The notes beneath the pieces were generated by a model. The model was not told the DNA's origin. It saw only the letters and a program-made list of their open reading frames with translations, and did not search any database. The position numbers and the translations under genes are program-made. Shown here in pieces: positions 14,677 through 19,587 of a stretch of DNA of 64,000 nt (its first letter is position 1; the number at the start of each line of letters is the position of its first letter). Source of the DNA: a bacterium (GTDB lineage: Bacteria > Planctomycetota > UBA1135 > GCA-002686595); NCBI GenBank assembly GCA_024226735.1, contig JAAELL010000602.1, forward strand, positions 1 to 64,000, written 5' to 3'.

Positions 14677-15657
14677 TCAGTTGCACCCGAGAGGCTGACG
14701 AGGTTGGGATCGGGTTTCGCGACGTAGCACCGTTCCCTTGCCGCCGACGCAGAGTCCTATCTCCGGCACGATTCCCACGAGCTCCGTTCCGCCTGTTTCG
14801 TGCACGACACGCCAGGTGAGGCCTCCGTTGGTCGTGTGGTGCAGATTGCCTTGCATCGTTGTTGCCCAGCCTTCGTTCTCGTTTGCGAACGCGACGTCGT
14901 TGAACTTGCCGCCGCTCGGTCCTGGCAGCGTCGACCATGTTCGGCCTCCGTCGCGGGTGACGAGTAGCGCGCCGCGCGCTGCCAGGACGAAGCCCGTGCG
15001 CGGAGTTGGGAAATGCACGGCGCGCAGCCAGTCGCTCGTGTCGGTCGCGACGCGCGTCCAGGTTGCGCCGGCGTCGAAGGTCGTCAGGAGGGTACCGCTC
15101 GTGCCGACGACGAAGCCGGTGTGCTCGTCGGTGAAGCAGACGTCGCGGTAGGACGCCGCGCGACCGGCCTTGGGCACGTTCGGCGTCAGTGACTCGAAGC
15201 TCCTTCCTCCGTCGCGCGTGCGCAAGAGGACTCCGTCGAGCGCGCTTCCACCCACGACGTAGCCGACGGTCCGGTTCGTGAACCAGGTGCCGGCGAGCCA
15301 GGTCTCGGTCCCCGACTCGCGGCGCTGCCAGCTCGCTCCGCCGTCGTCGGTCGCCAGGAACGTGCCCGCGAACCCGACGGCGTACCCGGTCCGTCGCGTC
15401 GGAAAGTGCACCGCATAGAGGCGTGCGTCGGTTTCGGTCGCGACCGGGCGCCACGTCGCGCCGCCGTCGGTGGTGCGCGCGAGAACATGCGGGTTCGAGT
15501 GCTCGCGGTCGCCGCCGACCGCGACACCATCGCGGGCGTCGGTGAACTCCGCGTCGAGCAGCAGGAACTCGAGCCCGGACGCGGTCGCTGACCAGCTCTG
15601 GGCGGGGGCGGTACAGGCTTGAACGGCGACGATGGCGAGAAGAGCGATGCAGCGCAT
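14677..15657 (-). CDS. secreted Ycf48-like Asp-box beta-propeller
   Basis: The 326-residue protein starts with a signal peptide or lipoprotein signal (IVAVQAC, Cys15). At least six Asp-box motifs follow: TTDGGATWR, TDDGGASWQ, TRDGGRSFE, TFDAGATWT, TRDGGRTWS and TTNGGLTWR, spaced about 45 residues with intervening VHFPT..TGY/F segments. This is a complete propeller of the Ycf48/BNR type. Function outside cells is unknown; in photosynthetic organisms Ycf48 is an assembly factor, which need not apply here. Divergent from the selenoprotein candidate with 57 bases between. Confidence 0.85.
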   Translation of the reverse strand: MRCIALLAIVAVQACTAPAQSWSATASGLEFLLLDAEFTDARDGVAVGGDREHSNPHVLARTTDGGATWRPVATETDARLYAVHFPTRRTGYAVGFAGTFLATDDGGASWQRRESGTETWLAGTWFTNRTVGYVVGGSALDGVLLRTRDGGRSFESLTPNVPKAGRAASYRDVCFTDEHTGFVVGTSGTLLTTFDAGATWTRVATDTSDWLRAVHFPTPRTGFVLAARGALLVTRDGGRTWSTLPGPSGGKFNDVAFANENEGWATTMQGNLHHTTNGGLTWRVVHETGGTELVGIVPEIGLCVGGKGTVLRRETRSQPRQPLGCN

Positions 15658-15714: not shown

Positions 15715-16779
15715 ATGATCGCACACGCCCTTCCAGCCCTCGCTCTCGCTACGTGCACCGCCACGAGCGCGGTCGACGATACGCCAGCCGACAAAACGCC
15801 CGTCGAGCTGGGGCGTGTCGGATGGACGCGCAACCTCGATGAGGCCGCGCAGGCGAGCGCCAAGGACGGCCGGCCCGTGCTGCTCCTCTTCCAGGAGATC
15901 CCTGGCTGAAGCACGTGCAAGGCCTTCGGGGAAGGCCCACTCAGCTTCCCGCCCCTGGTCGAAGCCGCGGAGACGCTCTTCGTCCCGGTCGTGATCCGCA
16001 ACAACGTCGAAGGCTACGAGCGCGAGGTGCTCGAACGCTTCGAGGAGCCGACCTGGAACAACCCGGTCGTGCGCTTCGTCGACGCGAAGCAGAAGGACCT
16101 GATCCCGCGCAAGGACCGCGTGTGGAAGACCGGGCCGCTGCTCGCGCGCATGGAGGCGGCGCTCGAGGCCGCCGAGCGCCCAGTGCCCGACTGGTTCCGC
16201 GCAGTCGCGCTGGAAGTCGGCACGGGCGACGTCGACGTCGCCGCCTTCGCGATGACGTGATTCTGGGAAGGCGAGGCTCACCTGGGTTCGATCCCGGGCG
16301 TGGTCTCCACGCGGGCAGCGTGGCACGAAGGCAAGGAAGTCGTCGAGGTTCGCTACGACGCCGAGCGACTGGCGTTCGAGGACCTGCTCGATCATGCCGT
16401 GCGCGGCGGCGCGGCGGCGCACGTCTACACGACGACGGACCGGCAGCTCCTCGCGGCGACGACCAAGCTCGGAGCGCGGGCTTCGAAGCTGAAGGGCGAC
16501 CCGCGGCCGTCGAAGGATTCCGACCAGCTCTACTACCTGCGTCGCTCGGCGCTGAACTACGTCCCGCTGACCCCCGTGCAGGCGCGGCGCGTCAACGCGG
16601 CGTTCGGCACGCAGGGTGACGCAGGTCGCTGGCTGTCGCCGCGCCAGCGCGCCTGGCGCGAACGCATCCAGAGCGCACTGGCAAACGATCCGAAGAAGCT
16701 CGCGGGGCTACGGCGGCCCGCGCGCGTCCAAGAGCTCGGCGGCTACGAGCTCGAGCTGGCGAAGAGGCTCGCGCGGTGA
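15715..16779 (+). CDS. candidate double-selenocysteine thioredoxin-like/MsrA fusion
   Basis: Reading through in-frame TGA at 15907-15909 and 16258-16260 gives 354 residues. Residues 1-~19 look like an export signal. Residues ~35-165 are thioredoxin-like: RPVLLLFQEIPG-U65-STC68-KAFG, then FVPVVIRNN and WNNPVVRFVD. Residues ~178-260 are MsrA-like: T-U182-FWEGEAHLG, then GVVSTRAAW and KEVVEVRYD, matching the GCFWxxE active site with U at the catalytic Cys and Glu at +5. The rest (YVPLTPVQARRVNAAFG) is a C-terminal extension. The only Cys residues are C14 (signal) and C68. Both TGAs fall exactly at redox positions and each has a SECIS-like hairpin. Likely role: repair of oxidised methionine with a built-in reductant. 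Neighbouring genes use TGA as a normal stop, so this is not global recoding. Confidence 0.85.
15907..15940 (+). promoter_or_regulatory. bacterial SECIS-like element for Sec65
   Basis: TGA 15907-15909 is followed by a 7-bp stem, GGCCTTC (15921-15927) with GAAGGCC (15931-15937), closed by a GGG apical loop. An outer GTG/CAC pairing (15915-15917 with 15938-15940) is separated by a CAA bulge. The apical loop lies about 18-21 bases after the TGA, within the range for bacterial SECIS, which usually carry a conserved G in the loop. Confidence 0.7.
16258..16300 (+). promoter_or_regulatory. bacterial SECIS-like element for Sec182
   Basis: TGA 16258-16260 is followed by CCTGGG (16281-16286) pairing with CCCGGG (16293-16298; one G-U pair) around a six-base loop TTCGAT containing G. 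The loop begins 26 bases after the TGA. The stem happens to resemble a tRNA T-arm, but no other tRNA arms are present. Confidence 0.6.
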
Positions 16780-16796: not shown

Positions 16797-18881
16797 TCAG
16801 GCTACACGCCGAAGCGGTTGCTGCTCGTCGCCTGTCCCGCTCAATCGCGCCTGGCGCGCGCTCGTGTGGATCCCGGTCCACATCACCGCCGCCGTGCCTC
16901 CGAGCAGCAGTCCGACCAGTAGCGCCAGGAGCACCGACGGGCTCGCCGGCGTCCGCGGCGCGCGAGCGGGATCGATCAGGCGCGCGTTCGGGAGCGCACC
17001 TGCGCGCGCGATCGCGGCGTCCTCGCGCTTCGTGCGCAGCTTCGCGACGACGGTGTCGAGCGCTTCGCGTCGGCCGAGCGGATCCTTGAGCAAGCGCTCC
17101 ACCCCCGGCAGCTGGCCGATGCGGGAGCGCAGGGTGTCGAGCTCGCGCAGCAGAGCGTTCTCCTGGTCGCGCACACCATCGACGCGCTTCGCGATCGCTC
17201 GCTCGACGAGCGCCCAGTGGCTCTCGATCGCGGCATCGATGCGCGCCAACTCGTCCTCGGGGTGCGACTCGCGCAGGCTCCGCCAGTCATTGACGATCGC
17301 TTCTTGAGCGGCCAGCTCGGCCTCGAGGCCGAGCTGGCGCGCTCCGAGGTGGGCGACGACGCGCTCGAGGATCGCGGCCATCTCGCGCCGAGCGGCGCGG
17401 ACAGCGTAGTACTCGGACGTGAACGTCGCCTCGAACTCGAGCGCGCGCCGCTCCGTCTTGGCGTAGTCGCCGATGTGGTGCAGCGTGAGCGCGTCGACCG
17501 TGACCGCGCCCTCCTTGGCGTTCTCTTCCCCCAGTCGGCCGAGCACCGAGCGATCGCCCGCCGCGAGTCCGGCGAGGATCAGGTCGAGCCCGATCAGCTT
17601 CGACTCGAGCTGCGCGCGTAGCCGCTCATCATCGGCGAGCTTGATCTGGAGCGTGCTCGTCAACATGCCCGGCCCTTCGCGGGCGACGCGCGTGCGCTCG
17701 TCCTCCAGGACGCCGATGAACTCGAGGTAGCGCCGCGCCACGGGGTCATCGAGGTCGGAACCCAAGCGCGAGACGGAGGCGCGATCGCCCGCGCGCACCA
17801 GCTCGTCGACGTCCTGCAGCGAGCGGCGCAAGCGACTGACCCGCGCCAGATCGGTGCTCGTGGCCGTCTGGCGCTGGTTGAGCTGCGTGAATGCCTTGTC
17901 GATCTCGATCGCGTCGGGGAAGAGCTCCAGGATGCGCGCGATCTCACGATCGATCACCGCGAGCTCGCCTTCGCGGCTGACGAGCTCGCGCTCGACGTAC
18001 TCGATCGCGCGATCGGCGCGTTCGAGCGTCGCTGCGACGTCGAGCTCCATGTACGTGTCGATCACTGAGCGCGCGATCTCGGCCGCCCGAACGGGGTGCG
18101 TGTCCTCGACGCGGACCCGCACGAGCCCCTCGAACCCCGTGCGCGCCGAGGCTTGCACGCGCTGCTGCACACGGACGGCGGCGTCCTCGGTCGTCAAGCG
18201 CTCGACGCTGAAGCTGCGGTCGTCGCGAACGCCGCGTGTCTCGACCCGTACGCGCAGTCCGGCGAAATGCATCGCCCGGCCAGGCTCGTAGGCAAAGATC
18301 TCCGGCTCGTTCTCGGGCCATTCGATGCCCGGCGCGCCCGAGGCGTGCGAGAGGACGCAGCGATCTCCGTCGACGAAGCGCACGCGGATCTGGCGTGCGG
18401 CGTCGGGGCTCATCGGCTCGAGCGCCGCGAAGAGGCGGAAGTCGGCGGACGTGTCGCCGGTGAGACCGCGGAAGAACGTCTTGAGCGGCGCGCGCCCCTC
18501 GTCCTCGACCCACGTCGTCAGTCCCATGCGACGCGCGTACTCGGGGTGGTCCGGGGTCGCGAGCTCGCCGTCTGTCGGCGCTTCGACCAGGCTCGCCGCC
18601 AAGTCGTAGGATGCGAGCACGGTCAGGGCCTCACCGACGTCGGTCGTCCCCGTCGGAATGTCGAGCTCTTCCAGAACCGGGCTCTTCGACAGCTCGTCTC
18701 CGACACGGAGACTCGCGGTCGCGACAAAGGTAGGCGTCTTGGAGAGCGTCAGCGCGACGACGATGCACGTGATCGAGAGCGTGATGACGATCGCGGTGAG
18801 CGGACGGCGAAACATGGAACCGGACGCGCGGCGCAGGCGCTTCCAGTCCTCGGTCAAGTCGTACTCGCGCGGGGCGTGCAT
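16797..18881 (-). CDS. Wzz/GumC-like polysaccharide co-polymerase
   Basis: The 694-residue inner-membrane protein has a transmembrane helix near ~26-46 (LTAIVITLSITCIVVALTL), a Wzz-type periplasmic domain, long coiled-coil helices (~290-610, rich in Glu/Arg/Leu/Ala) and a second transmembrane helix near the C-terminus (PSVLLALLVGLLLGGTAA). This is the PCP-2/GumC layout without the cytoplasmic tyrosine-kinase domain. It should set chain length and bridge to the export channel. Start ATG 18881 (MHAPREYDL) follows five bases after the Wza-like gene's stop. Confidence 0.85.
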   Translation of the reverse strand: MHAPREYDLTEDWKRLRRASGSMFRRPLTAIVITLSITCIVVALTLSKTPTFVATASLRVGDELSKSPVLEELDIPTGTTDVGEALTVLASYDLAASLVEAPTDGELATPDHPEYARRMGLTTWVEDEGRAPLKTFFRGLTGDTSADFRLFAALEPMSPDAARQIRVRFVDGDRCVLSHASGAPGIEWPENEPEIFAYEPGRAMHFAGLRVRVETRGVRDDRSFSVERLTTEDAAVRVQQRVQASARTGFEGLVRVRVEDTHPVRAAEIARSVIDTYMELDVAATLERADRAIEYVERELVSREGELAVIDREIARILELFPDAIEIDKAFTQLNQRQTATSTDLARVSRLRRSLQDVDELVRAGDRASVSRLGSDLDDPVARRYLEFIGVLEDERTRVAREGPGMLTSTLQIKLADDERLRAQLESKLIGLDLILAGLAAGDRSVLGRLGEENAKEGAVTVDALTLHHIGDYAKTERRALEFEATFTSEYYAVRAARREMAAILERVVAHLGARQLGLEAELAAQEAIVNDWRSLRESHPEDELARIDAAIESHWALVERAIAKRVDGVRDQENALLRELDTLRSRIGQLPGVERLLKDPLGRREALDTVVAKLRTKREDAAIARAGALPNARLIDPARAPRTPASPSVLLALLVGLLLGGTAAVMWTGIHTSARQARLSGTGDEQQPLRRVA

Positions 18882-18885
18882 GCTA

Positions 18886-19587
18886 TCAGCGAATGAGCGG
18901 TGTCTCGACGACGTTGCGCGTCGTGAACCCGAGGCCCGAGAGGATCGGCAAGATGTCTTCCTGGAAGTCGTCGACGCCCGTTTGGCGCACGAACACGATG
19001 TCGCCGGGGAGCAGCTGCACCAGTCCGCCCGCATCGGGCGTGCGTGCGTTGAAGAGGTGCACCTCGATGCGGTCGCCGTGGGGTCGGATCAAGAAGACGT
19101 TCTTGCGGTCGGCGCCGCGCACGTAGTGGCCACCGGTCGACAGCGCCTCGAGGGCATTGATCTGACGGTCCATCCGTTTGCGCCCAGGCTCCGAGATGTG
19201 CCCGAGGACGTAGTAGTCGCGCGAGTCGTAGGACACGACGCTCGTCGACACGTGCGGCTCGAGGACGAACTCGCCGTACGCGGCTTCGACCTCCTCGTTG
19301 ATCCGCGAGAGCGACTTGCCGGCTGCGTCGTACTTACCGATCAGCGGCAAGTACAAGAAGCCCTGTGGGTCGACGCGGATGCCGTCCTGCGGCGACGACA
19401 GCTCGGGATGCCCGATGAAGTGGACACGCAGGACGTCATTCGGGCCGATGCCGAGCCAGCTCCAGTCGCGTTCGGTCGTCACGGTCGTCACGTCCGCGTC
19501 CGAAGACGGAGCGGCCGCCGTCATGCAGGACGGCGTACAGGCGCAGAGACAAAGCGCTAGCCAGAGCGCGAGCTTCGGGCGGAACAC
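18886..19587 (-). CDS. Wza-like polysaccharide export lipoprotein
   Basis: The 233-residue lipoprotein (signal with CLCAC and PSC candidates near residues 16-21) carries the polysaccharide biosynthesis/export domain: WLGIGPNDVLRVHFIGHPEL ... IRVDPQGFLYLPLIGKYDAAGKSL ... INEEVEAAYGEFVLEPHVS, followed by an SLBB-like part (YYVLGHISEPG ... ALEALSTGGHY ... LLPGDIVFVRQ). It is shorter than E. coli Wza and lacks an obvious C-terminal amphipathic outer-membrane helix. It forms the export unit with the Wzz-like gene directly downstream. Confidence 0.9.
   Translation of the reverse strand: MFRPKLALWLALCLCACTPSCMTAAAPSSDADVTTVTTERDWSWLGIGPNDVLRVHFIGHPELSSPQDGIRVDPQGFLYLPLIGKYDAAGKSLSRINEEVEAAYGEFVLEPHVSTSVVSYDSRDYYVLGHISEPGRKRMDRQINALEALSTGGHYVRGADRKNVFLIRPHGDRIEVHLFNARTPDAGGLVQLLPGDIVFVRQTGVDDFQEDILPILSGLGFTTRNVVETPLIR

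Follow-up and report, generated by a model that had tools for sequence, protein, structure and literature searches.

Gene, frame and family

The window is the whole stretch of 64,000 nucleotides that was analysed, from contig JAAELL010000602.1 of a planctomycete draft genome. The gene considered here lies on its forward strand, and its features are collected in Table 1. When TGA is read as selenocysteine (Sec, U), the frame contains no TAA or TAG and gives a protein of 354 residues. Two in-frame TGA codons are located in the motifs IPGUSTC (site 1) and MTUFWEGE (site 2), spaced by 117 codons. This translation agrees with the first-pass annotation, which had read a single gene with two Sec codons in PGUSTC and TUFWxxE at the same spacing. 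The minus-strand flanks were read by eye as a YCF48-like beta-propeller protein (14677-15657) and a Wzz-type chain-length protein (16797-19034). Across the neighbourhoods of 20 loci, nothing is conserved besides this gene and the frames antisense to it.

Table 1. Positions in the window of the selenoprotein gene, its two sites, candidate hairpins and protein regions
Feature	Position	Strand	Evidence
Whole selenoprotein gene	15715..16779	+	354 codons and terminal TGA; translation, NF041383 match (390.6 bits), homologues
N-terminal export signal (putative), residues 1-27 (MIAHALPALALATCTATSA..)	15715..15795	+	Hydrophobic N-termini and some lipobox-like motifs in homologues; unstructured in model
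Thioredoxin-like domain, residues 37-124, with P-G-Sec65-S-T-Cys68	15823..16086	+	Pfam Thioredoxin_7 PF13899; Foldseek
TGA codon 65, putative Sec (site 1)	15907..15909	+	Sec or Cys at this codon in each of the 59 homologues with both sites intact
Candidate SECIS hairpin, site 1	15921..15937	+	GGCCTTC-GGG-GAAGGCC, perfect 7 bp; loop starts at nt 22 from UGA
MsrA-like domain and C-terminal helical region, residues 174-354	16234..16776	+	Pfam PMSR, profile, Foldseek
TGA codon 182, putative Sec (site 2), in M-T-U-F-W-E-G-E	16258..16260	+	Sec or Cys aligned in all 59 homologues
Candidate SECIS hairpin, site 2	16272..16290	+	CGAG(g)CTC-ACCT-GGGTTCG, bulged; loop nt 23-26, the family register
Glu208, equivalent of catalytic Glu55 of C. 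oremlandii MsrA	16336..16338	+	Invariant in family alignment; aligns to MsrA Glu

An open frame is weak evidence by itself, because a six-frame translation gives long ORFs everywhere on both strands of this G+C-rich DNA. The possibility of chance was therefore tested via homology. The window protein exceeds the cut-off of the NCBIfam model NF041383 (390.6 against 275 bits), matching with residues 31-314 to model positions 1-286 of 287. A single profile thus crosses both TGA codons and includes the MsrA-like region. Together with the exclusive exchange of Sec and Cys described below, this rules out a chance reading frame.

The family NF041383 (OS_HP5), named VPGUxxT thioredoxin-like (seleno)protein type 2, is described in a 2026 review with the motif VPGU and one Sec (PMC13188914). 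OS_HP5 is also named, with no motif given, in a 2022 list (PMC9312934). The window protein has IPGU, and nearly all members carry Val or Ile before Pro-Gly. The Thr at position +3 of the family name is not found in it; this position is Cys68 in the window protein, and Cys in 61 of the 63 sequences at that column. Membership is defined here by the curated model and not by the name, because the Thr of the name does not fit these members. The first-pass annotation had named a VPGUxxT family as related. The gene is itself a member of that family, which usually has the same MsrA-like domain. Neither PGUxxC nor its joining to an MsrA-type domain is thus a peculiarity of this gene: the +3 Cys occurs in nearly all members and the fusion is usual. 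The best reading of the gene is a variant of a known selenoprotein family with a second Sec.

Selenocysteine at the two sites

Profile scans placed the family above its cut-off in 32 genomes of a phylum sample of 392 and in 36 of the 154 genomes of the class, the genome of the window being counted in both. A protein-query search of contigs gave two partial relatives, both from Planctomycetota MAGs. The sequence is that of a draft MAG, and its relatives are drawn from a sample of one phylum. Fifty-nine sequences, including that of the window, are intact at both sites, and every residue found at positions 65 and 182 is Sec or Cys. Naming site 1 before site 2, 30 sequences are UU, 12 are UC, 17 are CC and none is CU. 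The Sec codon is always TGA and the Cys codon always TGC or TGT. The UU sequences, with the window's among them, come from many genera and have TGA at the same two codons. Conserved protein continues 3' of both TGAs, and in comparison with the nearest relatives codon position 3 changes more than positions 1 and 2 in all three segments of the gene. Global recoding of UGA, already discounted in the first reading, is ruled out: neighbouring genes end in TGA, and the relatives have Cys at these sites rather than Trp or Gly.

Some relatives depart from this pattern. In the paralogue L082 (G431:C33) both redox sites are gone together (VPGSASD, VPDLVQGE) while the rest of the protein is kept, and it is possibly a pseudo-enzyme. 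In L064 and L095 site 1 is altered and site 2 has only Cys. L085 retains the Sec of site 1 but no longer has the core of the MsrA-like domain, and L087 and L088 join a Sec thioredoxin-like domain to a different, helical-looking C-terminal region. A shorter exported relative (L089-L094, several genera; for example GENPGUQGC..FASGPLRDPR) has a PGUxxC site without the MsrA-like domain.

The genome of the window is a draft assembly of 9.0 Mb in 612 contigs, 88.8% complete. The Sec machinery whose presence was to be checked was found in it in all parts searched: tRNA-Sec (74.6 bits), selA (489), selB (364) and selD (330), each above its cut-off. The genes for selA, selD and tRNA-Sec share one contig, C32. 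The selD gene (L020, G000:C32:5076-6023) adjoins selA and has one in-frame TGA; its product is probably a selenoprotein itself. Among the 32 carriers of the phylum scan selA was matched in 29, in 28 of them above the cut-off. It is present in seven of the eight CC genomes of that scan, so lost machinery does not explain the CC state or the ordering of states.

Three further MsrAs are encoded in the genome, one of them with Sec and with a precursor resembling that of a lipoprotein. This second selenoprotein (L118, G000:C435:5615-6019, minus strand) is an MsrA with the motif LGUFWG and both the PTY and HDPC..QYR loops. It has a lipoprotein-like signal, and its helical C-terminus resembles that of the window protein.

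Hairpins following each UGA were searched for under strict rules (loop of 3-6 nt, G in the first two positions, loop start about 19-37 nt from the UGA) and scored by z-values against synonymous-codon randomisation. These values separate Sec from Cys forms at site 1 (p 8.6e-5) and at site 2 (p 3.5e-8). The z-score of the whole-region fold has a Sec effect at site 2 only, while the register-specific test has it at both sites. At site 2 the pairing of the family hairpin (nt 16-22 with 27-33) reaches 89.4% in the Sec forms. It drops to 39.7% in the Cys forms, and to 25-57% if the register is slid; cells with compensatory changes on both sides number 15, against 5.0 in shuffles. At site 1 many members have a hairpin at nt 25-30 with 34-39, which is 82.6% paired and has 16 compensatory cells against 5.5, both values coming from 24 sequences picked for that register, a choice that favours it. 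The close relatives of the window use another register at site 1, and the hairpin register of the window recurs in the close UU relatives L057, L061, L062, L063 and L065. RNAalifold gave no structure on the pooled site-1 sequences, the result to be expected of a mixture of two hairpin registers. The Rfam search of the window gave no match. At site 2 the hairpin of the window has the divergent loop ACCT, against AGTT in the family, and its z-score of -0.15 is not statistically distinct. The SECIS of site 2 is thus the weakest link in the case for this particular gene. For the family, the sequences indicate SECIS-like hairpins after the UGAs that go with the Sec state and are missing where the residue is Cys.

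The proposal of a double Sec in a thioredoxin-like/MsrA-type fusion therefore finds agreement in the Sec machinery, the exchange of Sec for Cys only and the Sec-linked hairpins. Decoding of both internal UGAs as Sec is highly probable across the family, and nearly as probable for the gene of the window itself.

The states at site 1 and site 2 are associated in a Fisher test that ignores the kinship of the sequences (p 3.8e-7). On a maximum-likelihood tree of 58 sequences there are 12 state changes in total, and in a Pagel-type test on these sequences the dependent model is better than the independent one (LR 14.5, 4 d.f., p 0.006). The fitted gain of Sec at site 2 is 0.25 per unit branch if site 1 is Sec, and falls to the lower bound of 0.001 if it is Cys. 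Independent pairs on the tree are too few for a comparison with power. Thus the gain of Sec at site 2 appears to be essentially confined to lineages with Sec at site 1 (p about 0.006, from 58 sequences with few independent switches). That the second Sec occurs only alongside the first suggests that a selenium electron relay of two steps is built into the protein.

Protein structure and proposed relay

The protein begins with a putative export signal, read by eye and pattern. The N-termini of the family are hydrophobic and several have a lipobox-like Cys, so the protein probably works in the envelope. An AlphaFold model based on an alignment of 58 sequences shows two domains with high confidence, with a pLDDT of 93.0 and a pTM of 0.87 for the whole protein; the second domain, modelled by itself, has 97.3 and 0.89. 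The first domain matches Thioredoxin_7 with 27.6 bits against a cut-off of 27, with the UxxC site present. Its Foldseek matches are AGR2/3 and proteins of the thioredoxin fold such as DsbH and DsbD-gamma.

The second domain is related to MsrA. The Pfam PMSR match is short, covering only the 32 residues 176-207 (23.8 bits, cut-off 23.7), and a profile match to the MsrA of C. oremlandii has an E-value of 2.6e-10. Among PDB structures, Foldseek places the C. oremlandii selenoprotein MsrA first (4u66; E 5.1e-07, TM 0.64/0.58). The 207 aligned columns include the C-terminal helical domain of that protein; other MsrAs follow, the MsrA domain of PilB being the next. Sec182-Phe183-Trp184 and Glu208 align to Cys16-Phe-Trp and Glu55 of the C. 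oremlandii enzyme. In the latter Glu55 is catalytic, while Tyr47, Gln89, Tyr90 and His137 build the pocket for methionine sulfoxide (PMC4333827). In an alignment with the MsrAs of the same genome, the loops with Tyr47 and with Gln89/Tyr90 are deleted from the window protein and the position of His137 (HQ motif) is changed. The deletion of the two substrate-pocket loops extends to all aligned members of the family, and the MsrA model TIGR00401 gives only 17.5 bits against a cut-off of 108.1. The first description of the domain as MsrA-type thus stands for the fold, the Sec-Phe-Trp and the Glu, but not for the two active-site loops or the score of the full MsrA model. The domain is derived from MsrA and is best called MsrA-like, true MsrA activity being only a possibility.

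These arrangements allow us to propose that the gene product is an exported selenoprotein whose two Sec residues act as a Sec-to-Sec redox relay in cis, a reading to which we give a probability of about 0.6. In the proposed mechanism Sec182 of the MsrA-like domain would attack a substrate in its oxidised state, for which a sulfoxide or some other oxidised sulfur centre is the most likely choice. With the assistance of the invariant Glu208, Sec182 would become a selenenic acid. The Sec65-x-x-Cys68 site would then reduce Sec182 and be left with a selenenyl-sulfide between Sec65 and Cys68, from which a DsbD/CcdA-like membrane reductase could recharge the thioredoxin-like site. A possible resolving Cys, Cys233, is found in 48 of the 59 relatives; the residue in the window protein is Ala. 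The loss of the two MsrA loops might open the site of Sec182 to the partner domain, which would suit a reductant in the same chain. Sec at site 2 would be profitable only once site 1 is Sec, as the faster reaction of Sec182 would require a reductant that is faster too. With the equivalents of Tyr47, Gln89, Tyr90 and His137 missing, the substrate may be a different one, and even the chemistry need not be that of an Msr. Methionine sulfoxide is a possible substrate, although we would not favour it. It is equally tentative to see in the single-chain relay, with its fixed order of Sec (reductant, then catalytic) and its MsrA scaffold stripped of loops, a new envelope oxidoreductase for a substrate other than methionine sulfoxide.

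Other explanations of the same data compete with the relay. Both Sec residues could be real and the two domains independent, with the thioredoxin-like one reducing envelope proteins in general and the MsrA-like one acting as a scavenger or redox sensor, fused for co-localisation only. Such independence would fit the thioredoxin-like part occurring without the MsrA-like part or with other C-termini (L085-L088), and also the absence of any conserved neighbouring gene from which a pathway could be read. However, the ordered use of Sec on the tree and the joint loss of both redox sites in L082 speak against it, as does the restriction to Cys at site 2 in the two sequences with a changed site 1 (L064, L095). 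Separate domains are rather unlikely. A genuine envelope methionine-S-sulfoxide reductase, composed of a trimmed MsrA and a built-in reductant as in the Trx-MsrA part of Neisseria PilB, is a further candidate. The retained Sec/Cys-Phe-Trp and catalytic Glu are consistent with it, as are top structural matches that are all MsrAs, led by the C. oremlandii enzyme and the PilB domain. The family-wide deletion of the pocket loops and the low TIGR00401 score speak against this candidate, and so does the presence in the genome of three MsrAs besides this one, among them the lipoprotein-like Sec-MsrA L118. We consider it improbable.

An artefact has also to be considered, either through assembly errors or a pseudogene, or because UGA is a plain stop that leaves a product of 64 residues. 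The fragmented and incomplete draft assembly and the weak site-2 SECIS of the window would be in line with this. However, errors would have to recur at the same two codons in 30 sequences of many genera, with only Sec or Cys in the intact ones. The conservation of protein past both TGAs, the codon-position signal and the presence of the Sec machinery are also contrary to it. An artefact is thus very improbable for this gene, and for the family the comparative sequence data already refute it.

The family bears on two open questions: why selenium replaces sulfur at given sites, and whether selenoenzymes need selenium reductants. Natural UU, UC and CC versions occur in one family, many of them in Sec-competent genomes, and CU is missing. 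The idea of a tandem selenocysteine can therefore be tested in one chain. In addition, a family catalogued with one Sec often has two, and annotation pipelines that stop at the second TGA would truncate such proteins.

Comparison with known systems

The window protein resembles NF041383 as catalogued in score, in length, in the PGU Sec and in a model that extends across the MsrA-like region. It differs in having a second Sec, in the MsrA-like domain, where the catalogued family has one Sec and VPGU, and in Cys instead of Thr at +3. In the parts consulted of a survey of selenoprotein fusions in the global ocean (PMC2398784), a double-Sec fusion of Trx and MsrA does not appear; the second Sec may have been noticed earlier elsewhere. 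The other Sec-MsrA of the same genome (L118) shares the GUFW motif, a lipoprotein-like signal and a similar YYLRR and helical C-terminus with the window protein, and matches the second half of NF041383 with 39 bits. However, it retains the PTY and HDP..QYR loops of a true MsrA and has no thioredoxin-like domain.

PilB of Neisseria is an envelope protein consisting of a thioredoxin-like domain, MsrA and MsrB in this order. As in the window protein, an N-terminal thioredoxin-like domain precedes the MsrA domain, which is itself among the Foldseek matches. PilB differs in having no Sec, a complete MsrA, an added MsrB and a thioredoxin-like domain of another family.

A functional precedent is offered by C. 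oremlandii, for whose Sec-MsrA a selenoprotein glutaredoxin was reportedly described by Kim in 2011. The activity of this Sec-MsrA exceeds that of the Cys form about 20 times, and glutaredoxin, unlike Trx, reduces the enzyme (PMC4479559). The pair has in common with the window protein the Sec-Phe-Trp, the catalytic Glu, the C-terminal helices and a reductant other than ordinary Trx (PMC4479559, PMC4333827). The partners in C. oremlandii are separate proteins, whereas those of the window are fused, exported and without the loops of Tyr47 and Gln89/Tyr90. By this analogy, the family of the window looks like a covalent, exported version of the pair of Sec-MsrA and its reductant.
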